Source: Halobacillus sp. Marseille-Q1614
GTDB taxonomy: Bacteria; Bacillota; Bacilli; Bacillales; Halobacillaceae
DNA length: 64,000 nt
Reading direction: 5' to 3'
Assembly: GCF_902809865.1 (NCBI RefSeq)
Contig: NZ_CADDWH010000001.1
Coordinates: 2,232,001-2,296,000, forward strand
Position 1 is the first letter of the stretch, and the number at the start of each line of letters is the position of its first letter. Shown piece by piece: positions 6,732-24,279 of the stretch. The notes under the pieces were generated by a model that saw nothing but the letters and a program-made list of their open reading frames with translations, was not told the DNA's origin and ran no database searches. A program made the translations under genes and the position numbers.

Positions 6732-6813
6732 TTTATCTAAATAGGCAGAATATAAACCACAGGTATTCCACGTACTTAAAAGCCCCTTTCCTCGAAGGGT
6801 GAACTTTCTCAGC

Positions 6814-6934
6814 AAACAGGCAGGCATCCTGACTTACATTCTAAAACCTTAGAATGCTTACAGTGGCGGGACCCTGTTGGACTTTCACCAACTTCCCCCT
6901 TTTACCTTAAAAGCTTCCCTTTTAGGACCTGTTT
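6814..6934 (-). promoter_or_regulatory. Cobalamin riboswitch (canonical aptamer)
   Basis: On the minus strand all conserved blocks occur in order: AAACAGG (P1, 5' arm), AAAAGGGAAG, GTTGGTGAAAGTCC, GGTCCCGCCACTGTAAG, a P6-type stem, GTCAGGATGCCTGCC (B12 box) and CCTGTTT closing P1. The element senses adenosylcobalamin or another cobalamin and is coupled to the terminator at 6703-6731 to control cobO-cbiA-cobQ-cobT. Confidence 0.95.
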
Positions 6935-6954
6935 GGTGCTATTAAATTAACCTT

Positions 6955-20339: not shown

Positions 20340-20924
20340 ATGACAGAACAAAAAATTATTGATGCCGGTCTTGAGTGCTTTGCTCAGTCGGGTTATCAGA
20401 ATACGAGCCTTGCGGAAATCGCGGATAAGGTCGGGATTAAGAAGCCTTCGCTTTATAATCATTTTTCCAGTAAAGAAGCGATTTTCCTAAGGGTGCTTGA
20501 AGAAGTAGCGAATAAGGAATTAGAGCATTTACAAGGATTTGCGGAATATACGAAAGATCGTTCGGTAAAAGAACAAATTCATGAAGTTTTTCTCTTATAC
20601 GTGGATCACATGGCCTACTCTACGGAAGGGGCTTTTTTTAAGCGGTTTACGTTTTTCCCTCCAGAAGAGTTCGCCCGTGAAATTCAGCAGGTATTTTTAC
20701 AAACGGAAGAGCAGGTAGTCAAAATCCTTCGGCCGATCTTCCAGAGAGGTATAACCGAGGGGGAAATCCGTCCGCTCGAAATTTCAGAACTGACCTCTAC
20801 TTTCTACACGATTATTGATGGTCTGTTTTTAGAGGAAAATTTCTACGACCGAGAAACGCTTACTGACCGGCAGAAAGCAAGTTTTAAAATATTTTGGCTC
20901 GGGATACAGGCAAAGGAGGAATAA
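20340..20924 (+). CDS. TetR/AcrR family transcriptional regulator
   Basis: Repressor of 194 residues. The N-terminal helix-turn-helix is typical (IIDAGLECFAQSGYQNTSLAEIADKVGIKKPSLYNHFSSKEAIFLRVLEE, split here across several helices), while the C-terminal ligand domain is unlike specific known groups. RBS AAAGGAGGG precedes ATG 20340. It is transcribed with the two SMR genes, so it most likely represses its own operon and releases it when a drug or cation binds. Confidence 0.88.
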   Translation: MTEQKIIDAGLECFAQSGYQNTSLAEIADKVGIKKPSLYNHFSSKEAIFLRVLEEVANKELEHLQGFAEYTKDRSVKEQIHEVFLLYVDHMAYSTEGAFFKRFTFFPPEEFAREIQQVFLQTEEQVVKILRPIFQRGITEGEIRPLEISELTSTFYTIIDGLFLEENFYDRETLTDRQKASFKIFWLGIQAKEE

Positions 20925-20926
20925 AA

Positions 20927-21277
20927 GTGGCTTGGGTATATATATTAATCGGTGCCGTGTTCGAGATTGGATGGGCCGTTGGGTTGAAGTTATCTGACGG
21001 ATTCTCAAGGCCCGTCATTTCTACACTCACCGTTCTATTTATTTTTATTAGCTTCTATTTCTTTACGAAAGCTTTACGACTCATCGATATCGGAACTGGC
21101 TATGCGATTTTTACTGGCTTAGGTGCTGCGGGTACAGCTGTAATTGGAATGACATTTCTTGGCGATGGAACAGGCGCGGGAAAGGTCTTTTTTATTGTGC
21201 TTTTAATTTTTGGAGTCATTGGTTTAAAAATGGCAGATTCCCATAAAGAAACTGCCCAGGTTCAGGAGGAATTATAA
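20927..21277 (+). CDS. SMR-family efflux subunit, YkkC/SugE-like
   Basis: Four-helix small multidrug resistance protein of 116 residues. The membrane-embedded acidic residue lies in AVFEIGWAVGLKLSDGF, and the family core is GTGYAIFTGLGAAGTAVIGM. GTG at 20927 follows AGGAGGAATAAAA. It starts 2 bases after the TetR stop and its stop overlaps the next ATG, so the two SMR proteins are made together and likely pair as a heterodimer. Similar B. subtilis pairs (YkkCD) export guanidinium or drugs; substrate unproved here. Confidence 0.88.
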   Translation: MAWVYILIGAVFEIGWAVGLKLSDGFSRPVISTLTVLFIFISFYFFTKALRLIDIGTGYAIFTGLGAAGTAVIGMTFLGDGTGAGKVFFIVLLIFGVIGLKMADSHKETAQVQEEL

Positions 21278-21591
21278 TGGCTTGGATCTTTCTATTAATT
21301 GCTGGTCTAGGTGAAATGTCAGGGATGTTTTTCTTAAAGCTTTCGGATGGTTTTCGCAAAGGGAAACCTGCGATCGCAGCCTTAGTTTCCGGAATCACAA
21401 GTTTCTATTTTCTTTCCTTATCTTTAAAGGAACTTCCGATAGGAACAGCTTATGGAATCTGGACAGGAATTGGATCTGCAGGGACCGTTTTACTAGGGAT
21501 GCTCATTTTTAAAGAGGAAGCAAGCTTTAGAAGAATCTTCTTTATTGGATGCATTATTTCTGGGGTAGTCGGCCTAAAACTTGTGTCCTGA
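21277..21591 (+). CDS. SMR-family efflux subunit, YkkD-like partner
   Basis: 104-residue, four-helix partner subunit. The membrane glutamate is in AGLGEMSGMFFLKLSDGF, and the core GTAYGIWTGIGSAGTVLLGML and C-terminus VGLKLVS match YkkD-type proteins. Its ATG overlaps the preceding TAA by one base. SMR pairs of this kind insert in opposite orientation to form the pump. Confidence 0.88.
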   Translation: MAWIFLLIAGLGEMSGMFFLKLSDGFRKGKPAIAALVSGITSFYFLSLSLKELPIGTAYGIWTGIGSAGTVLLGMLIFKEEASFRRIFFIGCIISGVVGLKLVS

Positions 21592-21911: not shown

Positions 21912-21920
21912 TAAAAAAAG

Positions 21921-21950
21921 AGCCGCTCTCCCCACTGTGGGAGAGCGGCT
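21921..21950. terminator. Bidirectional terminator
   Basis: AGCCGCTCTCCC-CACT-GTGGGAGAGCGGCT with A-run before and TTTATATTTT after; it ends both the small-peptide gene and, on the other strand, the MutS2-like gene. Confidence 0.9.
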
Positions 21951-21959
21951 CTTTATATT

Positions 21960-23891
21960 TTATTCTTCGCTGTTAAGCCATTCGCCTTCAACGTACTTTC
22001 GATCCATTTCCCGCTTCTTCTTACGGTATTCCTTCGATTTAAAAACTATATCAAAATCATAGTCTTCTGGATAGAGTTCTTCCGCCGGAATATGGATACG
22101 GATCCGCTTATGATTCAGGGAAAATTTCTCTCCTTTCTGTTGAACGACATAGTCCCCTTTTTCATCAGGACCTTTATAAACGATCGCTGTCTCTCCTGTG
22201 GCGAGAATCTTTACGTTATCCCCCTGTTTATAAAGGGTAACCGCCTCTTGCATCAACGTCTTTTCTTTGGATTTTTTTCTGTAACGATTGGCTGCCATTT
22301 GTTTTGTATAATTATCTCCGGCTAATTCCTCACTGTTAATTGTAAAATTCTTTTTTGATTTATAGGTGATCTCATACGCTTTTTCTAAAATTTGCGGATG
22401 AAGACCCAGCTTCTGAGCAATATCAAACGCCTGGCTCTTTCCTTCTGACCCTTGAATCAGTTTGTACGTGGGCTGCAGACTTTCTAAATCAAATTCCATC
22501 GCCGCATTTACGAACCCTTCTTTATCCTGAGCATAATCCTTCATTTCACTGTAGTGAGTGGTTGCCAGAATTTTGGCTCCTTTATAGGCGAGCTGATCTA
22601 AAATCGCAATCGCAAGTCCCATTCCTTCTCCTGGATCTGTTCCGGACCCGATTTCATCTAACAGCACTAACGATTGGTCATTGGTCTGCTGCAGCACTCC
22701 AATAATATTGACGAGCCGTGAACTAAACGTACTCAAGTTTTCCTGGATACTCTGCCCGTCGCCAATATCTACGAGAATATGCTGAAAGATCGGCAGTGAG
22801 CTTCCTTTATCTGCAGGAATCGAGAGCCCTGTCTGAGCCATTAACGATAACAATCCGACTGTTTTTAATGTAACAGTCTTCCCTCCAGTGTTCGGTCCCG
22901 TAATGAGAAGCCCTTGAGGGCTTTTATCTAAAAGGATCGTCAGTGGTACCGCCGATTCTCCCAGCAATGGGTGGCAGGCATTTTTTAAGTCGATAATGTC
23001 TTCATTATTTATAATGGGTGATTCGCCTTTGATCATTCGGCTGTACTTCGCCTTGGCAAAAATAACGTCATAAACGAGCATCGTTTCTACAGCAATCGAG
23101 AGATCCTGTTCGTAGGATAATACCTGGCTCGTTAAGGAATAGAGGATCTGTTCTATTTCCTGCTCTTCCTGCATTTTAAGAAGGTGCAGATCTTCCTGCT
23201 GTGAAGTGATTTCTGACGGCTCAATAAAAAGAGTAGCACCAGAAGCAGACTGATCAACGATGGTTCCCTTCAGTTTATTTCTGCTCTCCCGCTTAATCGG
23301 CAACGTCAGCTTCCCATTTTTCTCTATCACCCGTTTTTCTTGAAGGTGAGTGACAACCTTCGGGGACTTCGTCATCTGCTGGATTTTTTCTTTAATCTTT
23401 TCTCTCTTGTGCTGCATTTGTTTTCTAAGCTTCGCTAAAGAAGGTGTCGCATAGTCATCCACTTGCCCGTGACGAATCGAGCGGGCAATTTCTTCTTCAA
23501 GCTGGTCAAGCTCGCCGATGGAATAAGCATACGAGCTGACCATAGGTGCGATGATTTGTTTATCCTTCATAAACCTTTTGAGCTTCGTACAGTGTTCCAA
23601 AAATGAAAGTAAATGTGTGAACTGGGAGGGACGGATATACATTCCCTTTTTCCCCTGCTCGACCATCTGATGAATTTCATTTAAAGAATGAATCGGCACA
23701 TGGCTGTTCACATGCAGAATCGCTTTGGCCTCCTCAATCTCCCGGTGTAAATGATCGATTCGTTTCTTATCACGAGATGGAGTTAAGGCATGGATCGCCT
23801 TCTTTCCTTGTTCAGTTAGAGCATAAGTGCTCACTTCATTTAAAATATCTATAAAGTTCACGTTTTCAAATGTTTGTTGATTCAATTTCAT
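21960..23891 (-). CDS. MutS2-like ATPase lacking the Smr nuclease domain
   Basis: A 643-residue MutS2-family protein, shorter than the ~780 of standard MutS2. Present are the N-terminal and clamp region (coiled-coil around LAKLRKQMQHKREKIKEKIQ), FIEPSEI, Walker A GPNTGGKT at 332-339, Walker B LVLLDEIGSGTDPGEGMG and THYSEMKDYA. After a KOW-like stretch (GDNVKILATGETAIVYKGP) it ends in a basic tail, with no Smr domain. ATG 23891 follows TTGGAGGAAA. The open frame continues 43 codons upstream through the leader. Standard MutS2 acts on stalled ribosomes and recombination; the role of this shortened paralog is unknown, though the missing nuclease and the attenuator-like leader suggest an inducible ribosome-rescue role (inference). 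Confidence 0.85.
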   Translation of the reverse strand: MKLNQQTFENVNFIDILNEVSTYALTEQGKKAIHALTPSRDKKRIDHLHREIEEAKAILHVNSHVPIHSLNEIHQMVEQGKKGMYIRPSQFTHLLSFLEHCTKLKRFMKDKQIIAPMVSSYAYSIGELDQLEEEIARSIRHGQVDDYATPSLAKLRKQMQHKREKIKEKIQQMTKSPKVVTHLQEKRVIEKNGKLTLPIKRESRNKLKGTIVDQSASGATLFIEPSEITSQQEDLHLLKMQEEQEIEQILYSLTSQVLSYEQDLSIAVETMLVYDVIFAKAKYSRMIKGESPIINNEDIIDLKNACHPLLGESAVPLTILLDKSPQGLLITGPNTGGKTVTLKTVGLLSLMAQTGLSIPADKGSSLPIFQHILVDIGDGQSIQENLSTFSSRLVNIIGVLQQTNDQSLVLLDEIGSGTDPGEGMGLAIAILDQLAYKGAKILATTHYSEMKDYAQDKEGFVNAAMEFDLESLQPTYKLIQGSEGKSQAFDIAQKLGLHPQILEKAYEITYKSKKNFTINSEELAGDNYTKQMAANRYRKKSKEKTLMQEAVTLYKQGDNVKILATGETAIVYKGPDEKGDYVVQQKGEKFSLNHKRIRIHIPAEELYPEDYDFDIVFKSKEYRKKKREMDRKYVEGEWLNSEE

Positions 23892-23911
23892 TTTCCTCCA
23901 ATTATGCCCAT

Positions 23912-23946
23912 AAAAAAAGCTGCAGCAAGCTAAAGCCCGCTGCAGC
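23912..23946 (-). terminator. Second leader terminator before the MutS2-like gene
   Basis: Minus strand GCTGCAGC (23946-23939), 12-base loop, GCTGCAGC (23926-23919), then seven T (23918-23912). It ends 20 bases before the start codon, so it should attenuate the gene. Confidence 0.8.
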
Positions 23947-23992
23947 CCATGGGAAATCAAAGAGACTCTTTCCTCTTCGCCATTTTTTAATC

Positions 23993-24041
23993 CAAGATAT
24001 AAAAAAAGCCATGACATCACGTCATAGCTCAGAATATCTTG
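23993..24041 (-). terminator. First leader terminator before the MutS2-like gene
   Basis: Minus strand GCTATGAC (24028-24021), 5-base loop, GTCATGGC (24015-24008), seven T (24007-24001). The hairpin with its T-run is itself enclosed by CAAGATAT (24041-24034) and ATATCTTG (24000-23993), giving a nested fold that could include an antiterminator. Confidence 0.75.
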
Positions 24042-24062
24042 AAAAGTCTGCTATGGTTATGC

Positions 24063-24175
24063 TTGTTCTTAACTGTTCCTAAAAAAGCCATATTTAAATA
24101 AACATGCAAAGCGCGCAAGTTTTTCGAAGCTTCTTTAGAAATCCGTATAAAATTAACGGTCTTAGTTAAGAACAA
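24063..24175. repeat. Widely spaced 12-bp inverted repeat upstream of the MutS2-like leader
   Basis: TTGTTCTTAACT (24063-24074) and AGTTAAGAACAA (24164-24175) are perfectly complementary with 89 bases between. They could bracket the promoter as an operator pair or form the base of a long RNA fold. Confidence 0.5.
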
Positions 24176-24279
24176 CCACACTCATAAAAATTCTCCTTAA
24201 ATTTAAAATGACGGAGGAGGAAAGAAATCCCTCCTCTACAGAATAGCCATTCCAAATAACAAAGTCAATAGGCATTCAC

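Follow-up and report, generated by a model that had tools for sequence, protein, structure and literature searches.

A gene on the minus strand of a 64,000-nucleotide stretch of Halobacillus sp. Marseille-Q1614 DNA (hereafter "the window") encodes a paralog of MutS2 that lacks the Smr domain, and it is preceded by a short leader open reading frame (ORF), a complementary RNA strand and two tandem intrinsic terminators. These elements appear to form an RNA switch that responds to ribosome stalling on a mini-gene of seven residues. We favor, with moderate confidence, the interpretation that this is an attenuated unit with an arrest-sensing leader, whose product is an inducible, HflXr-like ribosome-splitting ATPase. 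The comparative evidence points to the Smr-less paralog as an unrecognised, widespread, translation-stress-induced ribosome factor.

If this reading is true, induced ribosome splitting is not limited to HflXr, and MutS2 function without collision recognition becomes testable. Despite annotations of the "endonuclease MutS2" type, the loci examined mostly have a leader-peptide switch of their own. Searches of open-licence PMC papers showed no attenuated MutS2-like resistance gene of this kind among the titles and abstract beginnings listed, and a search there for proteins lacking the Smr domain listed a plant paper.

A MutS2 paralog without a Smr domain

The gene occupies positions 21960..23891 (minus strand) and encodes 643 amino acids from the ATG at 23891 or 641 amino acids from the TTG at 23885. 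A Shine-Dalgarno sequence, GGAGG (23899-23895), is located 3 nucleotides from the ATG and 9 nucleotides from the TTG, and because of this spacing the true start is probably TTG 23885 rather than ATG 23891. Converging on the gene are a TetR regulator followed by two SMR-family small multidrug resistance transporter genes (20340-21591, assigned by Pfam). Transporters of this type are found near the Smr-less gene in 11 of 79 related loci.

The NCBIfam model TIGR01069 (mutS2) covers the predicted protein, P0001, at profile positions 1-546 of 790 with a score of 575 bits, and residues 2-507 (~505 aligned) are of the MutS2 type when compared by hhalign with full-length MutS2 from 13 genomes (probability 100%). 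Among Pfam families, MutS_V alone exceeds its cut-off, and Smr is not found even at E 10; the same scan applied to the full MutS2 of this genome (L002, 782 aa) returns MutS_V, MSSS and Smr. Walker A (GPNTGGKT) and the stretch DE(I/L)GSGT(D/E)P are invariant in all 30 aligned rows. By these profile matches, the Smr-less paralog retains the MutS2 core, clamp and ATPase, the last two of which had been noted in a sequence-only reading of the window. The KOW-like stretch described in that reading is less secure, as MSSS scores 12.6 bits in Pfam, below its cut-off of 26.8, and the last 94 residues have no hhalign match to the KOW-Smr region of MutS2. A remnant of Smr that was suspected by eye in the last 40 residues was rejected when the hhalign comparison of the C-terminal profile with the KOW-Smr profile gave a probability of 0.3%.

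It had also been considered that a Smr domain might persist downstream of a sequencing error. We looked for this and found that it is not so: the coding frame closes at 21960, directly followed by a strong terminator (21917..21954, minus strand; terminator search, read as 21954-21917). Moreover, the proteins of all 30 first-found loci, including that of the window, end at 635-644 aa, so the missing domain is not such an error. The full-length MutS2 that was to be sought elsewhere in the genome is indeed present as L002, with its Smr domain.

A conserved seven-residue leader ORF

Upstream of both terminators is the leader ORF ATG AGT GTG GTT GTT CTT AAC TAA (MSVVVLN*; 24162..24185, minus strand), the codons of which constitute RNA strand R1. 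Sequence and relatives alike indicate a Shine-Dalgarno element for this ORF, AAGGAG with a 7-nt spacer (24193..24198, minus strand), and a probable promoter, TTGACT-17-TATTCT (24240..24268, minus strand), matches the consensus at 9 of 12 positions. Promoter matches of at least 10/12 are present ahead of 69 of 91 leaders versus 7 of 91 shuffled sequences.

An equivalent leader ORF is present in each of the 30 first loci, window included (28 were recovered by script, and the other two encode MLGVVLN*), and in 77 of 80 named loci, so that the leader conservation anticipated in relatives is borne out. The three named loci that lack it have a broken frame (L071), a contig end (L074) or no leader that could be found (L084). 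When 107 leader regions were deduplicated to 91 non-redundant ones, the end GTT CTT AAC TAA was found in 87 and proved to be the most fixed part. The inner residues vary, with MSVVVLN (22), MLGVVLN (15) and MSVNVLN (8) accompanied by 20 further forms (n = 91), although the start codon and the Shine-Dalgarno spacing are kept. Judged by its sequence and conservation, the leader ORF is translatable.

Among 40 further regions, a leader of the ..LN* kind together with a downstream GTTAAGA strand is present in 20, at protein identities down to 37%. Another 17 belong to the type-2 clade described below, L171 and L196 lack the GTTAAGA strand but carry an ORF that resembles the leader, and L195, which has a broken gene, has neither. 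The L171 ORF (genome G587) starts with GTG and precedes a 738-aa homolog with a repeated GGEVK linker. At L009 the leader is positioned at -977, where several hundred extra bases that resemble an insertion separate a complete attenuator from the gene. The leader matches no known Rfam family at gathering score; the window as a whole matches only tRNA and a cobalamin riboswitch (6802-6947, minus strand, 68 bits). A search of open-licence PMC papers found no mention of the peptide MSVVVLN.

It had been suggested earlier that a leader peptide or alternative start might lie in the gene's own frame, which was noted to be open through the second terminator. That frame is indeed open in the window, for 53 codons, but the same is true of only 3 of 23 scored loci, window included. 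The open frame is therefore incidental, and the suggestion of an own-frame leader is abandoned.

Predicted alternative pairings upstream of the gene

Leader and terminators together span the segment 24280-23912, whose predicted fold is much more stable than those of shuffled sequences (z -7.7) and pairs the leader ORF with a downstream strand, R2 (AGTTAAGAACAAGCATAACCATAGC; 24050..24074, minus strand). R2 could bind the leader ORF in this way; alternatively, its terminal CATAGC could bind terminator 1 at the 5′ arm. Terminator 1 (GAGCTATGAC..GTCATGGCTT plus a T run; 24001..24030, minus strand) has an 11-pair stem at 24030-24006 that covaries in an alignment of 47 loci. Terminator 2 (GGGCTGCAGC..GCTGCAGCTT plus a T run; 23912..23948, minus strand), located by terminator search, has a 14-pair stem at 23948-23917. 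Thus both terminators with T runs that had been noted from the sequence were recovered, and a scripted search of the 91 leaders identified R2 with two terminators in 71. Terminator-like sites number 16 in 8.5 kb versus 8.3 ± 2.9 in shuffles.

Two further elements are located between R1 and R2. The predicted fold includes a short hairpin (CCG..CGG; 24143..24160, minus strand) immediately after the leader stop, and the alignment places TTTATTT (24096..24102, minus strand) behind a weak hairpin, as a candidate RNA polymerase pause motif of the NusG type (TTNTTT). At this place 37 of 47 loci share TTNTT (shuffled mean 15.3, highest 21), and TTTATTT is likely a pause site.

The 71 leaders were thinned to 19 diverse loci for a permutation test and to 47 for the covariation alignment. 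R1 pairs with R2 better within loci than between them, as only 4 of 5000 permutations were as good. The intended negative control in the same test, which set R2 to pair with terminator 2 in its 5′ half, was likewise low (25/5000), which makes the test weak by itself. Both leaders with AAT in place of AAC carry the compensating base in R2. Of the 10 pairs in the R1-R2 core, three never vary among the 47 sequences and two show double changes. Because the core barely varies, a sequence constraint beyond pairing likely acts on these arms. Its predicted fold and conservation mark the R1-R2 structure as an anti-antiterminator that overlaps the leader ORF.

The near invariance of the nine-base arms, which exceeds what pairing requires, might instead be expected if the inverted repeat GTTCTTAAC..GTTAAGAAC were the DNA operator of a repressor and the short ORF were incidental. 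However, the first arm closes an ORF that varies in its inner codons but preserves its start codon and the distance to its Shine-Dalgarno sequence, the arms are separated by ~70-120 bases and are followed by terminators, and a sister clade retains the logic with other letters. We consider an operator very improbable and continue with an RNA switch that includes a leader predicted to be translated.

R2 may also act in antitermination. Terminator 1 has GCTATG or GCTGTG in its 5′ arm, which complements the R2 tail CATAGC. At least six contiguous pairs can be formed in 63 of 71 loci, and the pairing ranks in the best 5% of shuffles in 25 of the 71. Matched combinations have no advantage over mismatched ones (756/5000), a result that conserved sequence on both sides would also give. 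An antiterminator formed by R2 and terminator 1 is possible. Relief of terminator 2 by R2 was rejected, as matched combinations were no better than mismatched ones (1575/5000) and 7 of 71 loci fell in the best 5% of shuffles.

Distribution and a sister clade

The first survey covered 61 genomes, namely that of the window and 60 relatives. An intact type-1 homolog (635-644 aa) is present in 30 of these, a more distant one in two and broken copies in four; the nearest homolog of P0001, 79% identical, is in G004. A MutS2-like match in an open frame of 782-812 aa occurs in 60 of the 61 genomes, with G041 having none among the matches listed. For the full-length proteins, a Pfam scan of L002 showed the Smr domain, which can also be seen in the 13 that were aligned. 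Among 299 genomes sampled across class Bacilli, a family-specific C-terminus replaces Smr in 70, representing 26 of 119 genera. The named genomes used in this analysis share some members with the other sets.

A quick tree of 73 chosen proteins separates type 1 (48 rows, support 96), type 2 (12 rows, support 100) and full-length MutS2 (13 rows, support 100), each forming one side of a branch. The rows were hand-picked, leaving out L173, L182 and L187, whose estimated start read a stop, as well as L181 and L183. L113, from a record titled Chryseobacterium sp. ISL-80, clusters among Bacillales in the gene tree, and a mix-up of name or assembly is probable.

No gene neighbor is common to more than 12 of 79 related loci, and two plasmid copies of the Smr-less gene each carry their own leader. 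Both observations support the view, which we hold with moderate confidence, that the gene is transcribed as an attenuated unit of its own and encodes an ATPase acting on ribosomes.

One such alternative is that the leader senses ribosomes while the MutS2-like protein acts on DNA in the control of recombination, being induced in a general stress response only. MutS2 proteins have been described as recombination suppressors, and public annotation names these genes "endonuclease MutS2" or, for one plasmid copy, "DNA mismatch repair protein MutS". The missing Smr domain argues against a role on DNA, as do the two precedents seen for leader attenuators of the same layout, vmlR and hflXr, of which the first serves ribosome protection and the second ribosome splitting. 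We hold this alternative to be quite improbable and retain the ribosome-acting ATPase as the working interpretation.

The type-2 leader differs from that of type 1. Of the 17 type-2 regions, 11 were taken for a leader test, and 10 of these carry, under a loose rule, a leader that resembles MSAVGSK/MSVVGSK or varies on it; no such leader is visible by eye in L182. In 299 genomes the type-2 leader pattern matches five, in every case at a type-2 gene. Complementarity of R1 and R2 is in the best 5% of shuffles in six of 10 type-2 loci, whereas the other four miss this mark. Judged by these letters and pairings, the type-2 clade keeps a similar attenuator logic in other letters.

Type-2 R2 also pairs with the last 90 nucleotides before the gene, to an extent that is in the best 5% of shuffles in nine of 10 loci, which suggests a further, translational layer near the gene start. 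A TAGGTATCTTCAT-like strand that is complementary to R2 occurs upstream of the gene's ribosome site in loci such as L175, L177 and L178, although the pairing with the last 90 nucleotides is not always made through this strand. Pairing of R2 near the gene start was rejected for the window, where 160 of 300 shuffles were equally good.

The same attenuator ahead of other genes

The pattern GTTCTTAAYTA-N(65-95)-RTTAAGAAC was searched in 299 Bacilli genomes and matches 36 of them at 42 places, while reversed-pattern controls in the same genomes give zero matches. At 32 of these places a type-1 gene is ~2 kb away; at nine the gene that follows encodes a BpsA_C protein, and at the remaining one a GNAT acetyltransferase. 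Leaders before the BpsA_C proteins encode MSVFVLN, MSVCVLN and MSALVLN, and the leader before the GNAT gene encodes MFVVVLN. In 398 genomes of the phylum there are six matches to the type-1 pattern, all among its 16 Bacilli, and none in the 382 others. A stricter leader pattern matches 14 of 299 genomes of the order. Eleven of these matches are ahead of the Smr-less gene (tblastn), L115 and L116 are inside other reading frames (by eye), and the remaining one, L126, is ahead of a decayed bpsA-like copy. At this last locus (L126 / L248, genome G042) the VLN leader is intact, and no Smr-less homolog is among the G042 matches listed.

Closer association with BpsA-like genes is evident at individual loci. 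The VLN leader is present in 12 of 17 loci of the BpsA-like type (L259-L275), and in three of the five leaderless ones (L272, L274 and L275) the gene immediately ahead is mutS2-like. These three cases come from three genomes of a single genus, where one attenuator heads the pair of mutS2-like and bpsA-like genes, with one pair being clean. In L279 only 4 nt separate the mutS2-like stop from the bpsA-like ATG, in L280 the second gene has its first ~24 residues out of frame, and the two genes overlap in L283, where the second is broken. In both L279 and L280 the mutS2-like protein stops early, near position 597 of the window's protein. The bpsA-like gene of L281 (G512) has a leader whose stop is lost (MSAIVLNEAGIA*) and a degenerate R2.

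These associations raise the alternative that the signal read by the leader is not a drug but the metabolic or ionic condition of translation, such as polyamine level or stalling at its Asn-stop end. The BpsA_C family makes branched polyamines that support ribosomes, and polyamines are described as supporting ribosome function in a review (PMC12979288). The location of BpsA_C genes behind nine of the 42 attenuator sites and in the paired loci would fit such a signal, as would the fixed end of the leader. However, the VLN leader is present in none of 10 loci with a strong, classical full-length BpsA_C match (L249-L258), and the window's genome has no BpsA_C match. Moreover, although the BpsA-like protein matches solved BpsA (PDB 5xnc) at E 4e-21 and keeps the GDDD motif, its end is Cys-rich, as read by eye from a single protein (L224). 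The acidic aminopropyl carriers are located at the C-terminus of BpsA, according to PMC12979288. Because the Cys-rich stretch stands where BpsA has this acidic cluster, the BpsA-like protein may not be a polyamine synthase. We consider metabolic or ionic sensing unlikely, and prefer a leader that responds to ribosome-targeting drugs or similar stress.

The shared switch points to the uncharacterised BpsA-like gene as a partner of the Smr-less paralog. We tentatively propose, with a confidence that falls somewhat short of even, that the xxxVLN* attenuator defines a small translation-stress regulon of Bacilli comprising the Smr-less MutS2 ATPase, the BpsA-like transferase and the GNAT acetyltransferase. 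The first two would provide a two-part protection in which one protein splits arrested single ribosomes and the other modifies or shields the ribosome, against an inhibitor linked to neither so far.

A model for induction and action

When the leader is translated normally, the R1-R2 structure would form and RNA polymerase would stop at terminator 1, with terminator 2 catching leakage past this site. If a drug that targets ribosomes, or a comparable stress, arrested a ribosome on the leader, this ribosome would cover R1, leaving R2 to pair with the 5′ arm of terminator 1 and permitting transcription of the gene. The product would then split or clear stalled ribosomes by using its MutS2 ATPase. 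Because the Smr domain that recognizes collisions is absent, its targets may be not collided pairs but single ribosomes that are arrested, such as those halted so near the beginning of a message that collisions are impossible.

Such an activity is compatible with what is described for MutS2 in one study (PMC10897456). There, splitting of disomes in vitro needs ATP binding and hydrolysis and does not need the DLR motif of Smr. A Walker B mutant is erythromycin-sensitive and KOW and Smr mutants are modestly so, and the Smr and KOW domains aid binding to collided ribosomes. The original suggestion of a stress-inducible ribosome factor under attenuation is strengthened by the conserved leader, the predicted pairings, the candidate pause site and the tandem terminators, and loses its own-frame leader.

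Comparison with known systems

The paralog resembles B. subtilis MutS2 (YshD) in having the core, the clamp and a MutS2-type ABC ATPase with invariant Walker motifs. Unlike that protein, it has no Smr domain, a shorter linker after the ATPase and an unassigned C-terminal domain, and it is controlled by a leader-peptide attenuator and coexists with a full MutS2. B. subtilis MutS2 itself is a collided-ribosome splitting factor (PDB 8qpp, 7qv3; PMC10897456). The co-regulated BpsA-like gene likewise shares the BpsA_C domain and GDDD motif with the N4-bis(aminopropyl)spermidine synthase BpsA (PDB 5xnc), and differs from it by its Cys-rich C-terminus and by the VLN attenuator ahead.

For the RNA, the closest layout among the systems compared is the vmlR leader of B. 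subtilis. In that leader, which has been studied experimentally (PMC9226507), the anti-antiterminator contains the uORF, a TTATTT motif for NusG accompanies the pause hairpin, and an antiterminator and a terminator complete the series. An agreeing layout, with a possible antiterminator, can be read here from sequence alone. The two differ in that a heptapeptide replaces the tripeptide MIN, the terminators are in tandem and the gene controlled encodes a MutS-family ATPase rather than an ABCF protein.

The nearest functional parallel may be HflXr of Listeria monocytogenes, an attenuated copy of a splitting factor that gives resistance to lincomycin and erythromycin, according to PMC6310831. As with HflXr and its rli80 leader, the system reported here adds to a housekeeping factor for ribosome splitting a second copy under attenuation, with a short ORF in the leader and structures that can alternate. 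It differs from them in using a MutS2-type ATPase instead of HflX and in a leader, MSVVVLN, that is without the RLR motif of rli80. An attenuator-led extra paralog beside a housekeeping splitting factor is HflXr-like by anatomy only. Extending this analogy, we infer that the Smr-less gene would relate to MutS2 in the way that HflXr relates to HflX.
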